A DNA stretch of 37,401 nucleotides, taken from assembly GCA_947388185.1 (NCBI GenBank), contig CANDQP010000017.1:1-37401 (forward strand), in the 5' to 3' direction. Source of the DNA: an uncultured Dorea sp. (GTDB lineage: Bacteria > Bacillota > Clostridia > Lachnospirales > Lachnospiraceae). The position numbers were made by a program, and so were the translations under genes. Below, piece after piece: positions 11,718-23,649 of this stretch (positions are counted from its first letter, which is position 1; the number at the start of each line of letters is the position of its first letter). A model generated the notes under the pieces. The model was not told the origin of the DNA. It worked only from the letters and a program-made list of their open reading frames with translations, and did not search any database.

Positions 11718-12004
11718 GCTTGGTGTGCCCGGTGGGCAAATACATGTAAAGCATTATAGATGCAAGCGGCTACAAACGGATGCCCCCTTTATGGCGACAG
11801 TTTTTATAGATTGCTGTATGGTGGGGAATATCATGTGTATTCAAGAGATGTTTCGCCGTGGTATGGGAAAAAATAACTGTAAAATGTCCTGTGGGTAATG
11901 TATAATGATAATATAAGATGTGAACAAGAGAAAAGTCGAGTAAAAATCAGGTGTTCTGTGCAGTGTTGGTGTTGGTTTTAGTTTATAGAAAGGGTGGTGT
12001 GTTA
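11718..12004. other. Intergenic region before the AT-rich patch
   Basis: No credible gene. An open frame at 11665-11898 crosses the dtd terminator and has no ribosome site. The right half becomes AT-rich and holds a tentative promoter with a perfect TATAAT at 11901-11906, giving a leader of about 95 nt for the JAB-domain gene. Confidence 0.6.
11901..11906 (+). promoter_or_regulatory. -10 element for the JAB-domain gene
   Basis: Perfect TATAAT; the hexamer at the 17-nt position (TGTAAA) is a weak -35. Confidence 0.45.
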
Positions 12005-12640
12005 GTGGAGAATTATGATGATAAGGATGAATTGAGAGACTTGGAAATGGCAAAGAAAAGAAATCATAAAGTTATGATTACAGATGAAGCTATTAGAAAG
12101 GTTCCAAGAATACAGTATAAAAATATACCGGAAAGTGAATATAGTATAATTCGAGAGTTGGCAAAGAATGTGTTGCAGATTTCCAAAGATGAAAACAATT
12201 CTAACGAAGTTGCAATAACATACAGCATGGAGAGTAAAAAGTATATTCAAAGAGGAGAAGAGTATATTGGGGTAGCATTGGGTGGTGAACATGAGGTTGA
12301 TCCAATGAGCAGTACAATTGCATATCACCTTGTAGCATCCGCTAAGGAATGTATTATTATTGTGTTGCATAATCATCCCTCATTGTCTGATTTTTCATTA
12401 TCAGATGTAAAGTTCCTGCTGCAATATGCTAGTGTTAAGATGATGGTGGTTATTACTAATTTGGGGAGTATATCATATCTTGTAAAGGGGAAAGGGTATA
12501 TGTATGAAACAGCAGTGGAATTATTTAATGAAGCTGTCAGTATGAATAATGAGGCAAAAAATCTAAAAGACTTGCAAAGAGCAGCGAATTACTTTTTAAG
12601 GAACTGCTGTAGGGCGGGTGTTGATTATGATAACCGATAG
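12005..12640 (+). CDS. RadC-like JAB/MPN domain protein
   Basis: 211 residues from a GTG at 12005, which has AGGGTGG 7 nt upstream; a longer frame from 11951 lacks a ribosome site. The region around residues 100-155 carries a JAMM metal motif: HNHPSLSDFSLSD (HxHP then SxxD) preceded by a conserved strand IIIVLHNHP, as in RadC-type JAB proteins, with Glu residues in GGEHEVDP upstream as candidate fourth ligand. RadC-like proteins are frequent on mobile elements; their biochemical role is unsettled. The N-terminal ~70 residues are not recognised. Base composition is clearly more AT-rich than the genes on either side, suggesting acquisition. Confidence 0.78.
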   Translation: MENYDDKDELRDLEMAKKRNHKVMITDEAIRKVPRIQYKNIPESEYSIIRELAKNVLQISKDENNSNEVAITYSMESKKYIQRGEEYIGVALGGEHEVDPMSSTIAYHLVASAKECIIIVLHNHPSLSDFSLSDVKFLLQYASVKMMVVITNLGSISYLVKGKGYMYETAVELFNEAVSMNNEAKNLKDLQRAANYFLRNCCRAGVDYDNR

Positions 12641-13718: not shown

Positions 13719-13743
13719 GTCTAAGGGGGGATGCCCCCTAGAC
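13719..13743. terminator. Inverted repeat at the end of the gcv-like operon
   Basis: Stem GTCTA-GGGGG / CCCCC-TAGAC with one bulged A and a short centre; it overlaps the TAG stop codon of the minus-strand gene at 13738. It lacks a T tract, so it may act as an RNA 3'-end stabiliser or a weak terminator. Confidence 0.5.
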
Positions 13744-14850
13744 CATATCAACCCGATATAATACAGTTTCATAACTGTTTACCCCGATCTTGTAGTAACC
13801 GCACAGATATCTGTCCGTATCTCTGTCGCCGGTGTCCACAAGCATAGGATTGCCCTTTAGAGTTGCAAGCTTTTCCTTTGTGACGGCCAGGATCAGCTTC
13901 TCTTTTGACACCATCCGGATGATCCGGGGGCTGATCTGCTGATTTCCCCGCCCGAAGATAAATCCATTGCCGCCGATACAGGTTACGACGATCCATGCAG
14001 GTATGCCCTTTCCTAACAGTTTACAGAGAGATTGTTCGTCCGCATCCCTTAAAATGATTTTTTTCCCTCTCGCTACATCCACGCCCCGAAGCGTCCCCTT
14101 GCCTTCTAATTGCTCCTTAAGGCAATAGGTAGTGCTTCCGGGGCCGATGATATATAAGGCGTGTTCGTCCATAGCAGAAATGATATAATCTGTGAGCAAT
14201 TCTCTGCCCGATGAATCTCCCGGGCAGATCTCCTTTGCTTTTTGCAGTCGGCTCTTATCATGGATGCTTTGCAGGAATCCATATAAAGCGGGGGTTGCCA
14301 AGGGATCGTTAAGCTGCGCTTCATCAATATCCATAATTTCCCGGTATTCCAAGGACAGCCGCTCTCCCCGGACGAAGCTTTCAAGCAGCTCGCCTGCCTG
14401 ATAGGGGCTTACGGCGTAACAGGCAGAATACATCTTCACCCCGGCCGGGACAGCCAGAACCGGGAATTGTTCGCCCACCGCTTCGCAGATGTCCCGCGCC
14501 GTACCGTCTCCGCCGCAGAAGACGAGCAGATCCATGCCCCTGTCTTTTAATAAGCGCGCGTAATACAGGGTATCCTCCTTTGAAGTGATCTCTCCATGTT
14601 TCCCGAGACTTTCATATGGAATCTGAGCTTTTTCTAATATATTTCCGCCCATTTCCCCTTCGGGGGCAATCATATGAAAGCCTGCGTCTTCTCTGATTCT
14701 GGCTATGCACTCGTATGCCCTTGCTCCGGCCGTTTTACTATAACCAAGCCCCAGGGCAGCCATGCGTCCGTCCAGGCTGTCGCTTCCTTTCATTCCCGCC
14801 TGACCGCCGAGCCCGGCAATCGGATTAACGAGAAAACCTATTCTCTTCAT
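13738..14850 (-). CDS. AcoX-type ATP-NAD kinase-like protein
   Basis: 370 residues. KRIGFLVNPIAGLGG at the N-terminus and LLVFCGGDGTARDICEAVG (about 108-126) with the GGDGT motif place it in the NAD-kinase/diacylglycerol-kinase fold, COG3199 (AcoX). A second conserved block lies around IIGPGSTTYCLKEQL and CIGGNGFIFGRGNQQISPRII. Family members are predicted to phosphorylate NAD or a related small molecule, but the substrate of AcoX-type proteins is not established. It is the last gene of the gcv-like operon, 6 nt after the dehydrogenase; an NADP(H)-supplying role for that pathway is inference. Confidence 0.85.
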   Translation of the reverse strand: MKRIGFLVNPIAGLGGQAGMKGSDSLDGRMAALGLGYSKTAGARAYECIARIREDAGFHMIAPEGEMGGNILEKAQIPYESLGKHGEITSKEDTLYYARLLKDRGMDLLVFCGGDGTARDICEAVGEQFPVLAVPAGVKMYSACYAVSPYQAGELLESFVRGERLSLEYREIMDIDEAQLNDPLATPALYGFLQSIHDKSRLQKAKEICPGDSSGRELLTDYIISAMDEHALYIIGPGSTTYCLKEQLEGKGTLRGVDVARGKKIILRDADEQSLCKLLGKGIPAWIVVTCIGGNGFIFGRGNQQISPRIIRMVSKEKLILAVTKEKLATLKGNPMLVDTGDRDTDRYLCGYYKIGVNSYETVLYRVDMV

Positions 14851-14856
14851 GCCGTT

Positions 14857-15885
14857 CTACATTCCTTCCGGGTGGAGCATGATCTTGACGGCCTGTCTGG
14901 ACATGAATACTTCGAAAGCCTTTTCCATATCTGAAAGCGCATAATGATGTGTGATCATCGGTGTTACGTCTATGCGGCCGTCCTCGATTAGCTGCAGGCA
15001 TTCCTTGAACTCTTCACGAGTATAGCAGATGGTGCCATGTATGTCGATTTCGCTGCGCACAACCTTGCCAAGATCCGTAGGCGCCAACTGATGGAACAGG
15101 CCTGTGATATAGTAGTGGCCCGTTTTCTTCAGGGAATTCATGGCAATCTCCACTAACGGAACGGCTCCTGCGCAGTCATGAACGAAATCCAGCATCTCGC
15201 CGTCCGTGATCTCGCGTATCCGCTCGATGGGGTCTTCGATGGAATTATTGATCACATGATCAGCCCCAAGAGTTTTGGCCAGTTCAAGACGGTCTCTGTC
15301 GCAATCAGCCCCGAGAACGATGATCTTGCGTGCGCCGCGAAGCCGTAGAAGCTGTGTGGCATACAGGCCGATGGGACCGGGGCCTAAGACCATAACGGTG
15401 TCCTTGGACGTGAGGGGCATACGCTTGACTGTGCGGTATGCGGAAGCCACCGGGTCTGCTGCCGCCCCGAAGTCGTAGCTTGTGGTATCGCGAAGCTTCA
15501 CCAGTACCTTCGCCGGAACGCGGACATACTCTGCAAAAGCGCCGTCTACGTGGATACCGGTCTCGATCAGGTTTTCGCAGAGCGGCTCATTTCCCTCGAT
15601 ACAGTATTTACAATTACCGCAGCCGATCACGATGCATGCGCTGACACGGTCGCCCACCTTCCAGCCCATTACCTTCGTCCCGACTTCCACAATGTCGCCT
15701 GCGAATTCGTGTCCGGGAATCAATGGATAAGGGACCTCCCTGGTTCCTGCTAGGATCGGTCCGTCAGAGCCGCAGAAGCCGACGGATTTCACCTTCACTA
15801 TGACATCATCCTCCCGGCATACCGGCATTGGCACATCTTTTATCGCAAAGCCTGGTCCTGTATGTTCTTTTACTACTGCTAGCAT
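14857..15885 (-). CDS. Zinc-dependent medium-chain alcohol dehydrogenase
   Basis: 342 residues, full MDR length. Catalytic zinc ligands C38 and the GHE motif (H59-E60); structural zinc cysteines C89, C92, C95 and C103; Rossmann motif GPGPIG (168-173). The sequence is of the Tdh / GatD / sorbitol-dehydrogenase branch that oxidises secondary alcohols or polyols, but the substrate cannot be read from sequence. AAAGGAG stands 7 nt before the ATG. Position between GcvPB-like and AcoX-like genes, with 15-nt and 6-nt gaps, suggests it works on the product or precursor handled by the GcvP-like pair. Confidence 0.9.
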   Translation of the reverse strand: MLAVVKEHTGPGFAIKDVPMPVCREDDVIVKVKSVGFCGSDGPILAGTREVPYPLIPGHEFAGDIVEVGTKVMGWKVGDRVSACIVIGCGNCKYCIEGNEPLCENLIETGIHVDGAFAEYVRVPAKVLVKLRDTTSYDFGAAADPVASAYRTVKRMPLTSKDTVMVLGPGPIGLYATQLLRLRGARKIIVLGADCDRDRLELAKTLGADHVINNSIEDPIERIREITDGEMLDFVHDCAGAVPLVEIAMNSLKKTGHYYITGLFHQLAPTDLGKVVRSEIDIHGTICYTREEFKECLQLIEDGRIDVTPMITHHYALSDMEKAFEVFMSRQAVKIMLHPEGM

Positions 15886-15900
15886 TTTTGTCTCCTTTCA

Positions 15901-17469
15901 TCATTCGGCGGCACAATTCAGGTTCATTTTCTTGTACGCCCGCCATGTAGTTGCGAATTTATCCCAGTCTGTCAGACCGGCCTCGTCGATCTGTGATGCC
16001 AGCGCTGCCTTGTGCGGGGCGCTCTTGACCAGCTCCGGGTTCTCGTAGGCTTCCTTTGCAATGGAACGGAACGCTTCCACGAATTCATCGATATCGTCTT
16101 TGGAATAGGTTTCCACCGGTTCTGGTGTAAATGGCTCCGGAATCACCCTTGGATGGTGGCTGGCAAAATAATCCTGGAATCCATAATCGACAATCCGCCT
16201 GCAGATGTCGTCGGTCGTGACTCCCGTATCCTCTGTGAGCTGCTCCCAGCTAAGCCTGGCCTGTTCCATACGGAATCTTCCTTCCGCCATAGGCATGCTA
16301 AGTCCTGGGATTGTCAGCAGCTTTTTCAGCATATAGTTATTGTTCAGGATAGACAGTTCGGCGATCTGCTTCATTCCGTCCGGACCAAGAGAGCGGATAT
16401 AAGCGTAGGCGCGTACCAGAACCGCAGGCACGCCGTAGAACTTCCTTAATTTCCCGATACTGTCCGGATGGTTGTAGTCTAGGTAATATTTTTCTCCGTC
16501 GAATTCTACCGTCGGAACCGCTGTGAATCTTCTAAGCTTCTCGGAGACGCACTGAGCGCCTGCCGCCGGTCCCTGGCAGCCGTGAGGTGAGGAGAAGGAT
16601 TTGTGCAGGTTATAGTGGCACATGTCGAATCCTGCGTCCCTCGCCCGGGTAATCCCGAATACGCCGTTTAGGTTGGCCTGATCATAGACACAGAGACCGC
16701 CTGCTTCATGCACGGTATCCACAAACTGGCGGATACGGTCATTGTAGATCCCGGTGTCCTCAGGATTGGTGATCATCAGAGCCGCCGTATGCTCAGATAC
16801 CGATGCTTTCAGAGCTTCCAGGTCCGGCAGCCCGTCCTTGTCCGGATAGAGCGTGATCAGTTTATAGCCTAAGGTTGCAGCCGTGCCGGGGTTGGCGGGG
16901 TGTGAGAGGATGGTGGTTATGATCTCGTTGCGTTGTTCTCCCTCGCCGTTGGCTTCATGATAGGCCCGGATGGTCTGCACATTGGCGAAAATCGCCTGGG
17001 AACCTCCGGACGGCTGAAGGCTTACGCAGTCCATCCCGGATATTGCCTTCAGGTATTCCTGGTCACGGTACATGATCTCAAGGATTCCCTGCAGGGTGCT
17101 TTCATCCTGGTAAGGATGAAGTTCAGTAAGCTTGGGGGATCGTACCATTTGCTCGTTGATCTTGGGGCTGTACTTCATGGTACAGGTTCCAAGACCGATG
17201 TCAATATTGATATCCGTTCCGATTGTCTCCTGGGAGAGCCGCATATAATGCCGTAGCACCTGCATCTGGGACATCTCCGGCAGCGCCGGCTTCTTCTTCC
17301 TTAGAAGTCCCTGGGGGACTAAGGATTCTCCGCTGCCCACACATTCGATGATATGCTCGGATGCAAGGGGGATCATCACGCCCCGTTCCCCCGGATTCCC
17401 CAGTTCCATGATAATTGGTTCGTCCCATCTCGCTTCGTGGAAATCACGGTCTGTTCTTATATATCCCAT
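15901..17469 (-). CDS. GcvPB-like PLP protein, divergent glycine-dehydrogenase subunit 2
   Basis: 522 residues, homologous along its length to subunit 2 of the split glycine decarboxylase (P-protein). The Schiff-base lysine is kept: NLHK, K290. However, several signatures are changed. The Gly-rich loop after it reads PHGCQGPAAG (295-304) instead of PHGGGGPGxGP. LQPxAGAxGE reads LQPSGGSQAI (151-160), AHGTNPASA reads SHPANPGTA (189-197), and NPNTxGxFE reads NPEDTGIYND. The C-terminal half (DYNHPDSIGKLRKFYGVPAVLVRAYAYIRSLGPDGM) remains typical. A PLP-dependent decarboxylase-fold enzyme acting on something other than, or in addition to, glycine is the inference. GGGAGG precedes the ATG, 1 nt after the upstream stop codon. 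Confidence 0.85.
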   Translation of the reverse strand: MGYIRTDRDFHEARWDEPIIMELGNPGERGVMIPLASEHIIECVGSGESLVPQGLLRKKKPALPEMSQMQVLRHYMRLSQETIGTDINIDIGLGTCTMKYSPKINEQMVRSPKLTELHPYQDESTLQGILEIMYRDQEYLKAISGMDCVSLQPSGGSQAIFANVQTIRAYHEANGEGEQRNEIITTILSHPANPGTAATLGYKLITLYPDKDGLPDLEALKASVSEHTAALMITNPEDTGIYNDRIRQFVDTVHEAGGLCVYDQANLNGVFGITRARDAGFDMCHYNLHKSFSSPHGCQGPAAGAQCVSEKLRRFTAVPTVEFDGEKYYLDYNHPDSIGKLRKFYGVPAVLVRAYAYIRSLGPDGMKQIAELSILNNNYMLKKLLTIPGLSMPMAEGRFRMEQARLSWEQLTEDTGVTTDDICRRIVDYGFQDYFASHHPRVIPEPFTPEPVETYSKDDIDEFVEAFRSIAKEAYENPELVKSAPHKAALASQIDEAGLTDWDKFATTWRAYKKMNLNCAAE

Positions 17470-17470
17470 A

Positions 17471-18907
17471 TCACTGCCTCCCTTCTGTGATCGCCGTCAA
17501 CGCGGTTCTTAGATTCTCGATCTCTTCTTCTGTTGTCAGCTCTGAGATACAGTACAGCGCGCTCTGTCCGTATTGCGGGAAATCCCGGCTTATGTCCTTG
17601 CCGCCGAAGATCCTGCGGGCAAGAAGTTCCTGGTTGATCTCCTTGACCGTCTTTCCTGTCTGATCAAAATTGATCACGAATTCCTGGAAATTCGCTCCGC
17701 CGAACAGATTCACCGTGATGTTCTTGATTTCAGATAGTCTTCGGATGGCGTAGCTTGTCTTCTGCAGGATGGTCTCGCCCAGCTCATACATCCCTTGAGG
17801 TCCCATGCTTGCAAGATAGATGCCGGCGGTGATTCCCCAGAGGCCTGTCTCTGTCCCGAAATACTCATTGGCATTCTCGCGGCTTCCGTGGGAACAGCGG
17901 TAGTTCATCGCGCGGCCCCATCCGTAACGCCCGTCTTGCCCGGTCTTGGTAATGCCATACATATAGGTGGGGAATTGTTCGGCAAGGCCAAGATCCTGAC
18001 TGCACGCAATGAATCCCGCCTGCCCGCCGCCAAACTGCATGTGCATCCCAAGCGGCTGGATATCTCCGCATACCAGATCCGCACCCAGGTTCAGCGGGCT
18101 CTCTACGATGCCGAGAGATGCAGCCTCCGGCTGCGCGATGCAAAGAGCCTGGTAACGATGTGCAAGTGCGGCGATCTGTTCTGCCTGTGTCTCAAAGAAT
18201 CCCAGATAAGACGGATTCTCATAGAATACAGCCGCCGCGCCGCCGTCCTTTAACTTCTCTTCCAGATCTTGCAAGTCCATAAGGCCTGTCTGGGGATCGC
18301 TGCCAACCGTGATAATCTCACCTGCATTCCTGCAGTATGCGAGAGCCTGTGATCGGATCTCCGGGTTCATGGTAGACGGAACTAGGATCCGTCGGTTATC
18401 GTGCCCCTTCGCCGCCTGTGCCCGAAGTGCGATGCGGAAAGCAGAAGATACCGATTGCCCTGCATCGTAAGTCGTATAGCTTACAATATCCGCATCCAGA
18501 AGTTCGCCCATCATGCTGGTGTATTCGAATATGGCCTGCATCTTTCCGTGATCGGAGTATGTATCCCCGCAATAAGCGGTCAGAAATTCCCCGCGCATGT
18601 TCAGCTCATCACAGATGGCAGGGACCTGATGGCGGTAACAGCCTGCCCCGAGAAAACTTACATAGTCTTCCGTGGTAATGTTTTGGTTCAAGATCCCCAT
18701 CACATGCCGCTTCAATTCGTATTCGTTAACGATTGGCTCCGGAAGATCCAGCCGCTCCTTGTACAGCAGGTCGTCCGGGATCAGGCTTTTGTAGATCTCA
18801 TCAATACTCTCTACGCCCAGCTCATCCAGCATCTGCTGCTTGATCTCTGGAACACTGTTCGGCATATAAGGGTGGACAAATGCCTTGTCCTTTCCTATAA
18901 CTCCCAT
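17471..18907 (-). CDS. GcvPA-like protein, divergent glycine-dehydrogenase subunit 1
   Basis: 478 residues from the ATG at 18907. This start has AAGGAG 12 nt upstream and fits a promoter whose start point falls near 18948; a longer form from 18946 has no ribosome site. Similar throughout to subunit 1 of split glycine decarboxylase (HPYMPNSVPEIKQQML, FLGAGCYRHQVPA, QAIFEYTSMMGELL). The near-invariant TAYTPYQPEISQG is replaced by TAYCGDTYSDHGK (110-122), and NASMYDG by SYTTYDAG. The RREKATSNICTNQ region is not recognisable, the aligned part reading YRCSHGSRENANEYFG. It should form the heterodimer with the GcvPB-like protein, but the canonical substrate site is altered. No H-, T- or L-protein gene is nearby. 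Confidence 0.83.
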   Translation of the reverse strand: MGVIGKDKAFVHPYMPNSVPEIKQQMLDELGVESIDEIYKSLIPDDLLYKERLDLPEPIVNEYELKRHVMGILNQNITTEDYVSFLGAGCYRHQVPAICDELNMRGEFLTAYCGDTYSDHGKMQAIFEYTSMMGELLDADIVSYTTYDAGQSVSSAFRIALRAQAAKGHDNRRILVPSTMNPEIRSQALAYCRNAGEIITVGSDPQTGLMDLQDLEEKLKDGGAAAVFYENPSYLGFFETQAEQIAALAHRYQALCIAQPEAASLGIVESPLNLGADLVCGDIQPLGMHMQFGGGQAGFIACSQDLGLAEQFPTYMYGITKTGQDGRYGWGRAMNYRCSHGSRENANEYFGTETGLWGITAGIYLASMGPQGMYELGETILQKTSYAIRRLSEIKNITVNLFGGANFQEFVINFDQTGKTVKEINQELLARRIFGGKDISRDFPQYGQSALYCISELTTEEEIENLRTALTAITEGRQ

Positions 18908-18954
18908 TTGTTTTTTCATCTCCTTTTCGTTCAATAATTTCATCATATATGAAT

Positions 18955-18983
18955 ATAGTAATCCTAAAAAACGGATTTGTAAA
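18955..18983 (-). promoter_or_regulatory. Promoter of the gcv-like operon
   Basis: On the minus strand TTTACA (18978-18983), 17-nt spacer, TACTAT (18955-18960). Transcription would start near 18948, which supports translation from 18907 rather than 18946. Confidence 0.55.
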
Positions 18984-19062
18984 TAAGAAGAGTGAGACAG
19001 TGTTTTTTATCGTTTTGTTATCTAATTAATTTTCTATAAATATTTCCACAATAATTTATAAA

Positions 19063-19092
19063 TTACCAGAAATACATTGACATTTCTGGTAA
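19063..19092. promoter_or_regulatory. Inverted repeat over the -35 box of the MarR-ABC promoter
   Basis: Perfect 11-bp arms TTACCAGAAAT (19063-19073) and ATTTCTGGTAA (19082-19092) with an 8-nt centre; the right arm covers the end of the -35 box. Probable operator in a divergent control region shared with the gcv-like operon. Confidence 0.7.
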
Positions 19093-19105
19093 AAATATCT
19101 AGTAT
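19077..19105 (+). promoter_or_regulatory. Promoter of the marR-ABC operon
   Basis: TTGACA (19077-19082), 17-nt spacer, TAGTAT (19100-19105); start point near 19112, about 60 nt before the chosen GTG. Confidence 0.7.
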
Positions 19106-19110
19106 AACCG

Positions 19111-19122
19111 TTAGACATCTAA
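19111..19122. promoter_or_regulatory. Probable MarR operator
   Basis: TTAGACATCTAA is a dyad with perfect TTAGA/TCTAA halves, close to the TTAGATATCTAA-type sites used by MarR-family repressors, and it lies on the start point of the marR-ABC promoter. A related ATCTAATTAAT sequence also occurs at 19019-19029. Confidence 0.65.
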
Positions 19123-19170
19123 TTAATATTGAAGCGTGTGCTTCGAAAAGACAGGAAGGAAGACGGGAAA

Positions 19171-19668
19171 GTGAAGAATATAGAAGAAGCGTCTATATTT
19201 ATCGTACTGCATCATTTGCTGCATCTGAGTAAATATCAGGCGATGAAGCGGATGGAGACGTTAGGATTAAAGCCGAGCCAGGCGGGGATACTTTTTATAC
19301 TGAACTGTGAGGGAGGGATCTCTCAGCGGCAGTTGGCGGATAAGATCGGGATCAGGCCTCCGTCGATGACGGTAGCGCTCAGGAAATTAGAAGAGCAAGG
19401 ATATATCAGGAAGGAACCGGATGCGAAGGATCAACGGATCATCCGTATAGAGCTGTCCGGGCGGGGGAAGGAGTGTATCGAAGAACTGGAGTGTATCATG
19501 AAGGATATGGAGGAAATGCTGTATCAGGGGATTACACCCGAGGAGAGAATGCTGTTACGGAGACTGATTCTTGAGATGAGGGAGAATCTGCTGAATTCCA
19601 AAGATTTTAAGGGAATGGACTTCAAAGATATAATAGAGAAGACGATAGAAGGGAAAGGTGAGATATGA
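19171..19668 (+). CDS. MarR family transcriptional regulator
   Basis: 165 residues from a GTG at 19171 that has GGAAGGA upstream; an in-frame TTG at 19129 lacks a ribosome site. The winged-helix domain is clear: LKPSQAGILFILNCEGGISQRQLADKIGIRPPSMTVALRKLEEQGYI (about 35-80) followed by the wing EPDAKDQRIIRIELSGRGKE. It overlaps the first ABC gene by 4 nt (ATGA) and very likely autoregulates the exporter operon, being released by a drug or metabolite. Confidence 0.92.
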   Translation: MKNIEEASIFIVLHHLLHLSKYQAMKRMETLGLKPSQAGILFILNCEGGISQRQLADKIGIRPPSMTVALRKLEEQGYIRKEPDAKDQRIIRIELSGRGKECIEELECIMKDMEEMLYQGITPEERMLLRRLILEMRENLLNSKDFKGMDFKDIIEKTIEGKGEI

Positions 19669-21818
19669 TAAAATTATTCAAGTTCTTAAAACCATATGGA
19701 GGTGCGGTCCTCGCGATCCTGTGTGTATTGGTCGTACAGGCCTACTGCGACTTGTCTCTGCCGACCTACACATCAGATATCGTCAATGTAGGGCTGCAGC
19801 AGAAGGGGATTGATGAGAAGGTACCGGAGATGATCGGTGAGGAAGATCTGGATCATCTCCTGCTGTTTGTACCGTCTGAAAAGCAGGAGATAGTAAAGGA
19901 AGCTTATGTTGCCAAAGAGTCAGTTTCTGAGAACTATGAAGGGAACGTGCTGGAGCTTGCGGAGGATGTGAAGGAAGATGAGGACAGGATGGCAGAGCTC
20001 TCTGAGATCTTAGGCAAACCGATGCTCCTGTGCAGCGGATTCGATTCCGGCAGTGATTTCGGGATGATGGAGGAGTCTCAGCGGGACGCGGCCATAGAGT
20101 CGATCGAGGAGCAGCTTGCCGTGATGCCGGAGACCATGGTGGAGCAGTCCGCCGCTGTCTATATCGCCGGCGCCTATGAGAAGCTTGGAGTCGACCTGGA
20201 CCGCAGGGAGACGAGATATATTCTTGCGACCGGGGCGAAGATGCTGGCGCTGGCAGCCCTTGGTATGCTGGCAAGTATTCTGGTAGGGCTTCTGGCATCC
20301 CGCGTGGGAGCAAGGATCGGCCAGACACTCAGGAAAGATGTATTCCGCAAGGTGGTTGGTTTCTCTAACGGTGAGTTCGATAAGTTCTCGTCAGCGTCTC
20401 TGATCACCAGGAGTACGAATGATATCCAGCAGATTCAGCTTCTTACGGTGATGATCCTTCGGATGGTAATGTATGCGCCGATCATGGCGGCAGGCGGGAT
20501 CTTCAAGGTATTCCGTACGAATGTGGATATGTCATGGATCATAGCGTTAGCGGTCGCATTGATCGTGATGGTAGTCGCGGTGCTCTTTATCGTAGTGATG
20601 CCGAAGTTCAAGGTGGTCCAGAGCATGGTGGACAGGCTGAATCTGGTGAGCCGTGAGATCCTGACGGGACTGCAGGTGATCCGGGCATTCAGCACGGAAC
20701 GGTATGAGGAGAAGCGTTTTGACGGCGCCAACAGGGATCTGACGAAGACGAATCTGTTCGTGAACCGTGCGATGACCTTCATGATGCCGATGATGATGCT
20801 GATCATGAACGGGATCGCTGTGCTGATCGTATGGATCGGAGGGCACAGCATCAACGACGGCAGTATGCAGGTCGGGGATATGATGGCATTCATCCAGTAC
20901 ACGATGCAGATTATTATGTCCTTCCTTATGATCTGTATGATCTCGGTCATGCTGCCAAGGGCGGCAGTTTCCGCCGATCGTGTAGATGAGATCCTCACAA
21001 GCAGTACGCTGATCCATGACCCTGAGAATCCGAAGGATTTTGCGGGAAATGGAACCGGCGAGGTGGTGTTTGACCATGTATCCTTCCGTTATCCGGGCGC
21101 TGAGGAGGATGTGCTGCAGGATCTGTCATTTACCGCAAGGCCGGGGGAGACGACCGCGTTCATTGGAAGTACGGGAAGCGGCAAGTCGACGCTGGTGAAC
21201 CTGATCCCTAGGTTCTATGATGTGACGGACGGAAGGATCCTGATTGACGGTATGGATATCAGGGAGGTTTCTCAGCATGATCTGCGTGACAGGCTTGGGT
21301 ATGTGCCGCAGAAAGGAGTCCTGTTCTCCGGCGATATCGCTTCGAATATTCTGTACGGCAATCCTGACGGCAGTGAAGAGGAGATGACCGAGGCGGCAAA
21401 TATCGCTCAGGCGGAGGAATTTATCGTGCAGAAACAAAAGGGATATCACAGCCCGATCGCCCAGGGAGGCTCGAATGTGTCGGGCGGGCAGAAGCAGAGA
21501 CTGTCTATTGCAAGGGCGGTCGCGAAGCATCCGGATATCTATATCTTCGACGACAGCTTTTCGGCGCTGGATTATAAGACGGACGTGAAGCTTCGTAATG
21601 CCCTGAAGGCCAAGACGAAGGACAGTACGGTGATGATCGTTGCGCAGAGGATCAGCACGATCCTCCATGCGGAGCAGATCATCGTGCTGGATGACGGGAA
21701 GATCGTGGGCAAGGGAACGCATAAGGAACTGCTTCAAAACTGTGAGGAATATTATCAGATTGCGTCTTCTCAGTTGTCGGAGAAGGAACTGGAAGACGAT
21801 ATGAAGGAGGTGGGATAA
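19665..21818 (+). CDS. Heterodimeric ABC exporter subunit with degenerate Walker B
   Basis: 717 residues: six-helix exporter domain, then an ATPase domain. Between helices 1 and 2 there is an unusually long, mostly acidic extracytoplasmic segment (about residues 40-185), which explains the length. The ATPase domain has Walker A GSTGSGKST (501-509) and a consensus signature VSGGQ (605-609), but Walker B ends IFDDSFSALD with Asp630 where the catalytic Glu should be. This is the degenerate-site subunit of LmrC/BmrC-like pairs. It pairs with the downstream gene. Export of drugs, lipids or peptides is expected; substrate unknown. Confidence 0.93.
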   Translation: MIKLFKFLKPYGGAVLAILCVLVVQAYCDLSLPTYTSDIVNVGLQQKGIDEKVPEMIGEEDLDHLLLFVPSEKQEIVKEAYVAKESVSENYEGNVLELAEDVKEDEDRMAELSEILGKPMLLCSGFDSGSDFGMMEESQRDAAIESIEEQLAVMPETMVEQSAAVYIAGAYEKLGVDLDRRETRYILATGAKMLALAALGMLASILVGLLASRVGARIGQTLRKDVFRKVVGFSNGEFDKFSSASLITRSTNDIQQIQLLTVMILRMVMYAPIMAAGGIFKVFRTNVDMSWIIALAVALIVMVVAVLFIVVMPKFKVVQSMVDRLNLVSREILTGLQVIRAFSTERYEEKRFDGANRDLTKTNLFVNRAMTFMMPMMMLIMNGIAVLIVWIGGHSINDGSMQVGDMMAFIQYTMQIIMSFLMICMISVMLPRAAVSADRVDEILTSSTLIHDPENPKDFAGNGTGEVVFDHVSFRYPGAEEDVLQDLSFTARPGETTAFIGSTGSGKSTLVNLIPRFYDVTDGRILIDGMDIREVSQHDLRDRLGYVPQKGVLFSGDIASNILYGNPDGSEEEMTEAANIAQAEEFIVQKQKGYHSPIAQGGSNVSGGQKQRLSIARAVAKHPDIYIFDDSFSALDYKTDVKLRNALKAKTKDSTVMIVAQRISTILHAEQIIVLDDGKIVGKGTHKELLQNCEEYYQIASSQLSEKELEDDMKEVG

Positions 21819-21819
21819 T

Positions 21820-23649
21820 ATGAGCGGAAGAAGACGCGGGCCTATGGGTCACGGAGGGCATGGGATGCCGGGAGAGAAGGCGAAGGATTTCAGAGGCACT
21901 ATGAAGAAATTAATGGTGTATCTCGGCGCCTATAAGCTCCAATTACTCCTGGTGGGAATATTTGCGATCGGGAGCACCATTTTCAATATCGTAGGACCTA
22001 AGATCCTGGGAAGGGCGACGACGGAGATATTCAACGGGCTGGTCGGTAAGATCTCCGGCGGCGCGGGGATTGACTTCGAGAAGATCGGCAAGATACTGCT
22101 GCTTTTGTTAGCCTTGTATGCATGCAGCGCGCTGTTCTCATTCGTCCAAGGATACATTATGACCGGCGTATCCCAGAAGCTGACGTACCGGATGCGCAAG
22201 GAGATCTCAGAGAAGATCAACCGCCTGCCTATGAACTACTTTGACAAGATGCCCCATGGCGAGATCCTGTCAAGGATCACCAATGATGTGGACACCTTAA
22301 GCCAGAGTCTGAACCAGAGCGCGACGCAGATGATCACGTCTGTTGCCACCATCATCGGTGTGCTGGTCATGATGCTCAGTATCAGCCCGCTGATGACGCT
22401 GATCGCGCTTCTGATACTGCCGGTCTCTGTGGGGATGATCTCGGTGATCGTGAAGAATTCCCAGAGATACTTCAAGAGCCAGCAGGAATATCTGGGGCAT
22501 GTGAACGGTCAGGTGGAAGAGATCTACGGAGGTCACATTATTGTGAAGGCATTTAACAAAGAAGAGGATGTGATTGCGTCATTTGACCGGGATAATGATA
22601 TCCTGTACGAATCTGCATGGAAATCCCAGTTCCTGTCGGGAATGATGATGCCGATCATGCAGTTCGTGGGGAATCTGGGTTATGTCGCGGTTGTGATCCT
22701 TGGCGGATGGCTTGCCATGAAGGATGCGATCGAGGTCGGCGATATCCAGTCATTTATCCAGTATGTAAGGAACTTCACACAGCCGATCCAGCAGGCGGCG
22801 CAGGTAGCGAATATGCTCCAGTCTACGGCTGCGGCCTCTGAGCGGGTGTTTGAATTCCTGGAGGAGGATGAGGAGGATCAGACAGCGGAGCATCCGGTAT
22901 CCATAGAAGGCCTGGAAGGACGTGTGGAATTTGATCACGTGAAGTTCGGCTATCATGCGGACCACACGATTATCCATGATTTCAGCGCGAAGGTAGAGCC
23001 GGGACAGAAGATTGCCATCGTAGGGCCTACCGGAGCGGGCAAGACCACCATGGTGAAGCTGGTTTTGCGGTTCTATGATGTGAACAGCGGTTCCATCCGG
23101 GTGGACGGGCATGATATCCGGAATTTCAACCGGAGCGAGCTTCGGGAAATGTTCGGGATGGTACTGCAGGATACCTGGCTTTTTAAGGGCAGTATCGAAG
23201 ACAATATCCGTTATGGCAAATTAGACGCGACCAGGGAAGAGGTGGTGGAGGCTGCTAAGGCGGCTTATGTACACCGGTTCGTGCAGACGCTGCCGGGTGG
23301 TTATGATATGGAGCTGAATGAGGAGGCGAGCAATGTATCCCAGGGGCAGAAGCAGCTTCTTACGATCGCGAGGGCAATCCTGGCAGATCCGAAGATCCTG
23401 ATCCTGGATGAGGCGACCAGCTCGGTAGATACGCGTACGGAGGTGAGGATCCAGAAGGCCATGGATAACCTGATGCGCGGAAGGACCAGCTTCATCATCG
23501 CACACCGTCTGTCTACCATCCGGGATGCGGATCTGATCCTGGTAATGAAGGATGGGGATATCGTGGAGCAGGGCAGCCATGAAGAACTGCTGGCACAGAA
23601 GGGCTTCTACGCGGATCTCTATAATTCGCAGTTTGAGCGCAGCGCATAG
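21820..23649 (+). CDS. Heterodimeric ABC exporter subunit with catalytic Walker B
   Basis: 609 residues, a basic Gly/His-rich N-terminal tail, six membrane helices and an ATPase domain with Walker A GPTGAGKTT (402-410), Walker B ILDEATSSVD with catalytic E531, and H-loop IIAHRLST. The signature is VSQGQ (506-510), not SGGQ. Together with the partner this gives one consensus ATP site (this Walker A/B plus the partner's VSGGQ) and one degenerate site, as in LmrCD, BmrCD and TM287/288. AAGGAGG is 9 nt upstream, and the gene begins 1 nt after the partner's stop codon. Confidence 0.94.
   Translation: MSGRRRGPMGHGGHGMPGEKAKDFRGTMKKLMVYLGAYKLQLLLVGIFAIGSTIFNIVGPKILGRATTEIFNGLVGKISGGAGIDFEKIGKILLLLLALYACSALFSFVQGYIMTGVSQKLTYRMRKEISEKINRLPMNYFDKMPHGEILSRITNDVDTLSQSLNQSATQMITSVATIIGVLVMMLSISPLMTLIALLILPVSVGMISVIVKNSQRYFKSQQEYLGHVNGQVEEIYGGHIIVKAFNKEEDVIASFDRDNDILYESAWKSQFLSGMMMPIMQFVGNLGYVAVVILGGWLAMKDAIEVGDIQSFIQYVRNFTQPIQQAAQVANMLQSTAAASERVFEFLEEDEEDQTAEHPVSIEGLEGRVEFDHVKFGYHADHTIIHDFSAKVEPGQKIAIVGPTGAGKTTMVKLVLRFYDVNSGSIRVDGHDIRNFNRSELREMFGMVLQDTWLFKGSIEDNIRYGKLDATREEVVEAAKAAYVHRFVQTLPGGYDMELNEEASNVSQGQKQLLTIARAILADPKILILDEATSSVDTRTEVRIQKAMDNLMRGRTSFIIAHRLSTIRDADLILVMKDGDIVEQGSHEELLAQKGFYADLYNSQFERSA

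Follow-up and report, generated by a model that had tools for sequence, protein, structure and literature searches.

A four-gene operon around a P-protein-like pair

The window analysed here, a whole stretch of 37,401 nucleotides from an uncultured Dorea sp. (contig CANDQP010000017.1), carries on its minus strand four genes separated by gaps of 1, 15 and 6 bases, which we therefore read as one operon (Table 1), as did a preliminary description of this DNA. The first two encode proteins resembling GcvPA and GcvPB, the two subunits of split P-protein (glycine decarboxylase); we refer to them as A' and B', and to the family to which the pair belongs as prime. They are followed by genes for a zinc-dependent medium-chain dehydrogenase (MDR) and a kinase-like protein. 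The end given previously for the operon, 18907, is an internal methionine (residue 14 of A'), and the full open reading frame (ORF) starts at 18946. A promoter-like match lies upstream at 18983-18955 on the minus strand, such matches being no commoner than in shuffled sequence. The operon contains no H, T or L gene, as had been noted, and an Rfam scan of the window gave no match, so there is no glycine riboswitch there.

Table 1. Features of the operon and its upstream region
Feature	Position	Strand	Description
A', GcvPA-like	17471..18946	-	491 aa; first gene of the operon; GDC-P, NF001696; loop TAYCGDTYSDHGK replacing TAYTPYQPEISQG
B', GcvPB-like	15901..17469	-	522 aa; pyridoxal phosphate (PLP) lysine K290; NF003346; closest structures P-proteins
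Zinc-dependent MDR dehydrogenase	14857..15885	-	342 aa; ADH_N and ADH_zinc_N; nearest L-threonine 3-dehydrogenase
NAD-kinase/AcoX-like protein	13738..14850	-	370 aa; NAD_kinase and NAD_kinase_C; GGDGT motif
Intergenic stretch between operon and divergent MarR gene	18947..19128	.	Presumed promoter region

P-protein fold and PLP lysine with replaced motifs

The homology claimed for the pair, together with its PLP lysine, is confirmed by Pfam, NCBIfam and alignment. A' matches Pfam GDC-P (171 bits) and NCBIfam NF001696 (409 bits, cut-off 364), while B' matches Pfam GcvP2_C, the class-V aminotransferase family and, below cut-off, GDC-P, as well as NF003346 (565 bits, cut-off 441). The best solved relatives of B' are the P-proteins 1wyt, 4lgl and 6i33, and an AlphaFold2 model of B' (mean predicted local distance difference test, pLDDT, 72.5; stretches under 50 include residues 63-105, 295-300 and 434-436) retrieved P-protein structures as its top Foldseek matches, followed by sphingosine-1-phosphate (S1P) lyases. 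At position 290 all 86 aligned prime B' proteins have a lysine, as does the canonical set. The GcvPA and GcvPB equivalog cut-offs are passed by ten out of ten further prime proteins, so these models do not separate the prime from the canonical family, and the NCBI annotation pipeline (PGAP) likewise names plasmid homologues of A' and B' gcvPA and gcvPB.

Relatives were collected by scanning one genome per species with the B' of the window as query, the best 80 of 162 being kept, and a plasmid search added further prime loci; motifs were compared with a canonical set of 19 Lachnospiraceae and nine plasmid loci. All four motif replacements named in the preliminary description read as it gave them, and the counts show them to be family-wide. 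Motifs of the QPxAGAxGE and AHGTNPAS types are each found in 0/89 prime B' proteins versus 25/28 canonical ones, PHGGGGPG in 0/89 versus 27/28, and TAYTPYQxE in 0/82 prime A' versus 21/27 canonical A proteins; the short pattern HEF occurs in 25/28 canonical proteins and in three of 89 prime proteins, there at other places in the sequence. Conversely, the patterns RxE[QM]xRxS (82/89), SH[HDE]P (87/89) and SHPxx (61/89) are restricted to prime proteins (0/28 canonical in each case). A "prime-like" B pattern was uninformative (85/89 prime, 28/28 canonical), and patterns devised for the prime A loop matched nothing in either set. P-proteins of known structure (Thermus, Synechocystis, E. coli and human) have canonical or near-canonical motifs. 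One of the four replacements must be read more narrowly than proposed: the LQPxAGAxGE change is present, but its GAx part is not distinctive, since the Synechocystis P-protein reads NAGSQGE, leaving only the change from GE to AI as a distinguishing feature.

A column-by-column comparison, with a threshold of at least 85% in both sets and a canonical side made up of Lachnospiraceae, gave 21 discriminating columns in A and 36 in B (two of the latter being gaps in the canonical set). Those in B include C400R, V405R, M437S and Y438H, with Arg400, Arg405 and His438 invariant in 31 aligned prime B' proteins; G94, C96-Y100 and D263/A265/N266 are invariants common to both families. One study of human GLDC marks Tyr164 and Trp897 as active-site residues (PMC7259800). 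By hand count, the altered A' loop has a gap where Tyr164 would stand, and the counterpart of Trp897 (offset 43 from Lys754) is H438 in one alignment of B' and H439 in another. Tyr161 is kept in 74 of 81 prime A' rows and lost in seven plasmid rows. The prime replacements are conserved across phyla and are not drifting.

A separate and widely spread family

Phylogenies were quick reconstructions without bootstrap, with support given as SH-like approximate likelihood ratio test (SH-aLRT) values. In a tree of 59 chosen GcvPB sequences (44 prime, 15 canonical) the prime sequences occupy one side of a single branch with support of 100, and when five fused GcvP sequences and A halves were added, the five prime A rows and the 25 prime B rows each formed a group of their own, again with support of 100. 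The separate clade for which the preliminary description had proposed to look is thus found in both trees. The family spans Lachnospiraceae, Actinomycetota, Proteobacteria, Chloroflexota and archaea. Judged by record titles, many of them of metagenome genomes, prime loci occur in Lachnospiraceae, Synergistota, Syntrophomonadaceae, Desulfovibrio, Chloroflexota, Actinomycetota and others, and also in Parendozoicomonas, Bathyarchaeota, Brockarchaeota and Thermoplasmata. Plasmid-borne loci were found in Rhodococcus (including pRHL1 of strain RHA1), Gemmobacter, Sphingomonas, Paracoccus, Antarctobacter, Roseicitreum and the haloarchaeon Natronosalvus. We recognised no description of this family in the open full-text literature, a coverage that leaves aside subscription papers and preprints.

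One Lachnospiraceae genome (G019, identical to G164) carries three different prime operons (L133, L134 and L135) in addition to a canonical system. One stands beside an Opp-like transporter and two are near a short-chain dehydrogenase (SDR), a kinase-like gene and an amidohydrolase, which suggests that the three act on different substrates.

Two further plasmid loci are also worth recording. On a Deinococcus plasmid (L124, 3565-8586) a GcvPA/GcvPB pair that belongs to the canonical clade on a long branch has a class-III aminotransferase and a MOSC protein as neighbours, and neither gcvH nor gcvT is annotated in the flank; it is possibly a second repurposing of P-protein. On a Vescimonas plasmid (L127, 573-3218) the annotated gcvT, which adjoins gcvH-gcvPA-gcvPB, extends over 2646 bases, the other gcvT genes seen being less than half as long.

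Independence from H protein, GcvT and lipoate

P-protein is known as the partner of the lipoyl-bearing H protein, and one reading of the prime pair is that it is an ordinary GcvPA/GcvPB with drifted motifs whose H protein is encoded elsewhere. The equivalog matches and PGAP names given above speak for this, and GcvH was indeed found in many prime genomes. Fifty of the 80 loci were chosen for a survey in which 48 genomes were searched: GcvH is real in 33, absent in eight, and represented in seven only by matches of at most 24.6 bits. However, canonical GcvP is also present in 31 of the 33 GcvH-bearing genomes and in none of the 15 without GcvH, where prime stands alone (Fisher test, 1e-10, uncorrected for relatedness). 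Among these 31, canonical GcvP takes a split form scoring at least 671 bits in 22 and a long fused form in seven (four of them confirmed by motif), the other two being motif-confirmed. The remaining two GcvH-bearing genomes (G161 and G176, both from metagenomes), in which prime is the only GcvP found, favour the drifted reading. As a control, among 150 Lachnospiraceae all 19 genomes with canonical GcvPB have GcvH, and no GcvH match above 23.9 bits was found in a prime-only genome (G057) or in 12 chosen Lachnospiraceae without GcvP.

The 17 prime-only handles represent 16 genomes, G057 and G159 having the same coordinates; one of them, G155, is a very near relative of the genome of the window. 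GcvT was found in none of the 16 and a lipoate-ligase domain in three, whereas three canonical-bearing control genomes have both. Within the limits of the assemblies, lipoyl transfer is excluded for most prime-only genomes. The genome of the window itself (3.6 Mb in 238 contigs, 91.6% complete) has the prime pair as its only GcvP, the second, canonical copy envisaged in the preliminary description not being found, and no GcvH, GCV_T or LplA/LipB-type lipoate-ligase domain was detected in this assembly. A GCV_H match of 23.9 bits was rejected as a biotin-carrier-like ORF, which by eye contains EAMKME and lies beside a decarboxylase-like gene. The situation that would have spoken against the earlier proposal, a sole GcvP in a genome with a working glycine cleavage system, does not hold here.

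With GcvT found in none and lipoate ligase in few of the prime-only genomes, the canonical motifs absent and their replacements conserved across phyla, we regard drift of an ordinary glycine decarboxylase as extremely improbable. The earlier proposal of a PLP pair outside the lipoyl/H-protein system is instead supported by the separate clade, by prime being the only GcvP found in the genome of the window, and by the lack there of any detected GcvH, GcvT or lipoate ligase. We conclude with high confidence that A'B' forms a separate, widely spread family derived from P-protein, with the PLP lysine, usually a kinase-like partner and often an MDR or SDR dehydrogenase, and that, because some genomes show none of GcvH, GcvT and lipoate ligase, it there operates outside the lipoate-dependent glycine cleavage system.

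Partner genes

At the 66 loci with at least 2 kb on each side of A'B', the steadiest partner is the kinase-like gene, present in the flank of 55; at 41 of these it shares the strand of A'B' and is no more than 300 bases away, either before or after the pair, and at four it is on the opposite strand. It was not seen in the examined flank at the other 11. Clustering of the flanking genes of 81 loci, a procedure that is not sensitive, placed 19 loci in an MDR cluster and 22 in the main SDR cluster, four being in both and 44 in neither. Of the constant linkage to an MDR and an AcoX-like gene that had been anticipated, the kinase-like half therefore stands, whereas the MDR is one of two alternatives, an SDR occurring instead in other lineages.

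The MDR of the operon resembles L-threonine 3-dehydrogenase in its best family and PDB matches, but reaches neither equivalog for that enzyme (NF003808, its best NCBIfam match, 244.2 bits against a cut-off of 380; TIGR00692, 225 against 458). C38, H59, E60, D144 and C89/C92/C95/C103 are kept in 90% or more of the 17 sequences aligned; we take the first four to be putative catalytic zinc ligands and the four cysteines to be putative structural ones. Eight SDRs were compared with family models: four score above cut-off for NF005559, a glucose 1-dehydrogenase subfamily model, and one of the four does so for NF009466 too; a single SDR reaches an equivalog cut-off, that of a generic SDR oxidoreductase (318.4 against 318), so that the matches of these eight point to no substrate.

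The fourth gene had been described as encoding an AcoX-type kinase-like protein. Its NAD-kinase domains and GGDGT motif agree with this, but no NCBIfam family and no library model named AcoX matched it, and AcoX is a provisional label; PGAP calls the plasmid homologues "ATP-NAD kinase family protein" or "NAD(+)/NADH kinase". In Peptoclostridium acidaminophilum (L138, 8001-10077) a gene for a homologue of the kinase-like protein overlaps one for a 328-aa HisC/CobD-like aminotransferase, which is a different PLP partner for the kinase-like family. A threonine-kinase reading of the Peptoclostridium protein was considered and dropped, the aminotransferase scoring higher as HisC than as CobD and below cut-off for both.

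Other neighbours vary, and several were named by eye, including some at L171-L174. They comprise amino-acid permeases, Opp, tripartite ATP-independent periplasmic (TRAP) and sugar ATP-binding cassette (ABC) transporters, members of a Na+/H+ antiporter family, M20 deacylases, amidohydrolases, a CoA ligase or CoA-transferase, lysine 2,3-aminomutase (KamA)-like and MttB-like proteins, and GH42. Phospho-hydroxylysine and glycoside substrates, suggested by GH42/MGH1-like neighbours in Actinomycetota, were set aside when no supporting downstream enzymes were seen. At one locus (L035, 5310-6785) an MttB-like methyltransferase, a few genes upstream of an MDR and prime genes, is apparently in two ORF pieces, and in Syntrophomonadaceae (L171, L069, L073, L078, L079 and L081) metallophosphoesterase-like and amino-acid permease genes recur after the kinase-like gene.

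A link to glycine

New evidence ties the A'B' module to glycine. A glycine riboswitch (RF00504) lies directly upstream of A' in two genomes (L038/L174 and L171), in the latter as a run of five matches; comparing riboswitch places by hand with those of B' gave no further case in 50 genomes, and in G157 the riboswitch lies between a symporter and Grd-like genes, away from the prime operon. In four genomes (L171-L174) prime genes have glycine-reductase genes as neighbours. The latter were identified through GrdX, component C, selenocysteine insertion sequence (SECIS) elements and GrdE-like proteins, these last scoring below cut-off. L172 and L173 have a formate-tetrahydrofolate-ligase-like gene too, and no kinase-like gene was present in the stretch examined at L172. 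Glycine-reductase component C occurs in four of four prime Lachnospiraceae compared with 12 of 146 others (one-sided Fisher test, 9e-5), and in 21 of the 48 surveyed prime genomes, 13 of them among the 15 without GcvH (one a contig-edge fragment).

Glycine riboswitches usually sit on glycine-consuming or transport genes, and glycine might on this account still be the substrate, A'B' decarboxylating it on PLP before the aminomethyl group goes to a small molecule or protein other than lipoyl-H, in a lipoate-free glycine catabolism. The two riboswitches, the amino-acid permease that follows in the same direction at L171, and P-protein ancestry with its PLP lysine are all consistent with such a route. 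Against it, the residues corresponding to human Tyr164 and Trp897 have been replaced, as has the GE of GAxGE; simple glycine decarboxylation offers no role for either the dehydrogenase or the kinase-like partner; and Arg400 and Arg405, both new and invariant, suggest that the substrate is bigger or carries more negative charge. We consider this unlikely.

A possible reaction and its alternatives

It is very likely that A'B' carries out a glycine-connected reaction other than glycine cleavage. A hydroxylated substrate is suggested by the alcohol dehydrogenase and kinase-like partners, and the glycine context suggests that glycine is either formed or consumed; we infer that the pair belongs to a glycine-linked pathway and uses PLP to generate a carbanion at Calpha of a hydroxylated amino acid. 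In the route that we favour, itself a guess, the dehydrogenase would oxidise the side-chain hydroxyl of a beta-hydroxy-alpha-amino acid and A'B' would split the beta-keto amino acid so formed between Calpha and Cbeta, with glycine staying on PLP and the acyl group handed to an acceptor other than lipoamide. The kinase-like protein might phosphorylate substrate or product, the released glycine would feed glycine reductase where present, and the acid part could be CoA-activated in aerobes. This cleavage is favoured because PLP alpha-carbanion chemistry, the threonine-dehydrogenase-like MDR, CoA-activating neighbours and glycine-reductase partners fit together; the neighbours counted for the route are CoA ligase, CoA-transferases, M20 deacylase and amino-acid permease.

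Several observations weigh against it. Glycine C-acetyltransferase (Kbl) scores above cut-off in the genome of the window and 15 others of 26 prime genomes, so threonine-derived 2-amino-3-oxobutyrate is no orphan there. The variety of neighbours (sugar ABC transporters with GH42, TRAP, KamA-like, MttB-like) may mean several substrates, 44 of 81 loci belong to neither dehydrogenase cluster, the MDR falls below the threonine-dehydrogenase cut-off, and the route strictly requires no role for the kinase-like protein. In 27 of the 48 prime genomes the search detected no component C, the riboswitch precedes A' in two genomes only and is lacking in the window, and the association with Grd in Lachnospiraceae rests on related genomes. 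As a whole, the explanation that joins a separate, non-lipoate family to cleavage of a beta-hydroxy or beta-keto amino acid is held tentatively, at somewhat less than an even chance.

A more specific version would have the module replace Kbl in threonine fermentation, a threonine dehydrogenase step being followed by conversion to glycine and an acetyl unit by A'B' and then by glycine reductase. The MDR is nearest to threonine dehydrogenase, glycine reductase co-occurs, and Kbl gave no match in nine of the 26 genomes, among them the Grd-bearing G170, G181, G192 and G193. The prediction that Kbl should be absent from prime-only genomes failed in the genome of the window, where it scores 650.6 bits and a replacement is contradicted. 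With Kbl above cut-off in 16 of 26 prime genomes, and also in 11 of 12 Grd-bearing Lachnospiraceae without prime, this version is very unlikely; either the module probably acts on something other than threonine in these bacteria, or it serves a different role.

The prominence of the kinase-like gene invites a different scheme, in which the AcoX-like protein would phosphorylate an amino alcohol or hydroxy amino acid on its hydroxyl group, after which A'B' would eliminate phosphate or cleave the phosphorylated product, by analogy with aminopropanol kinase and phospholyase or with sphingosine kinase and S1P lyase. The kinase-like gene is the steadiest partner and its product has GGDGT and NAD-kinase domains; Arg400, Arg405 and His438 of B' are new and invariant (31 aligned), and S1P lyases are the next Foldseek matches of the modelled B' after P-proteins. 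These last are, however, ordinary fold-type-I similarity, kinase activity and the placing of the Arg and His residues in the pocket are putative readings of sequence, and 11 of 66 loci have no kinase-like gene in the flank. We judge such a phospho-lyase to be distinctly unlikely.

Relation to known systems

A'B' is a homologue of P-protein by fold and PLP site and differs from the glycine cleavage system in clade, motifs and partners. With split GcvPA/GcvPB (T. thermophilus 1WYT/1WYU; PDB integrative model 9A73) it has in common the fold, the side-by-side paralogous subunits and the PLP lysine; in contrast, prime forms a clade of its own, the canonical TPYQxE, GxGE, AHGTNPAS, GGGGPG and HEF sites are replaced, and no H, T or lipoate partners were found in prime-only genomes, bar the lipoate-ligase domain in three. 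Under the favoured beta-keto cleavage, A'B' would, like Kbl, release glycine from a beta-keto amino acid. Kbl is CoA-dependent and belongs to a PLP subfamily apart from P-protein, and a true Kbl coexists in the genome of the window.

Operons for acetoin metabolism (aco) likewise link AcoX to a dehydrogenase of the butanediol/threonine type. The kinase-like protein resembles AcoX and ATP-NAD kinases in its N- and C-terminal NAD-kinase domains and GGDGT, but its partner is a PLP pair, whereas that of aco operons is the thiamine pyrophosphate-dependent AcoAB. One source describes acoX as characteristic of acetoin gene clusters and as having no known function (PMC3543383). The conserved partner in prime operons offers a handle on AcoX and, if the reading as carbon-carbon bond chemistry is true, would be the first biochemical context for AcoX-type proteins.

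What is new is an H-protein-independent P-protein family with an AcoX-like partner. A large sister family in genomes with no detectable lipoate transfer implies that the P-protein fold has been reused for other chemistry. The family may further represent a cross-domain, two-subunit PLP enzyme, derived from glycine decarboxylase, that forms or cleaves a carbon-carbon bond at Calpha of glycine with no lipoyl carrier and is coupled to an AcoX-like kinase, forming an unrecognised arm of glycine fermentation in anaerobes; we find this possible and rather doubtful. Since NCBI equivalogs name prime proteins GcvPA and GcvPB, a glycine cleavage or reductive glycine pathway deduced from gcvP alone can be wrong in some genomes. 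A candidate case of such misannotation in a published pathway, Brockarchaeota JZ-2.136, was rejected: it has a canonical GcvPB on the contig with GcvH as well as a prime pair, so the published inference of a glycine pathway is not overturned.

Other features of the window

A 229-aa ORF on the plus strand (11951-12640) contains a HNHPSLSDFSLSD stretch that we presume to be RadC/JAB-like; the ORF has no Pfam or NCBIfam match. Divergent from the operon, on the plus strand at 19129-23649, lie a gene for a MarR-type regulator and two ABC exporter-like genes, and the MarR gene is also present in the near relatives L005 and L016.

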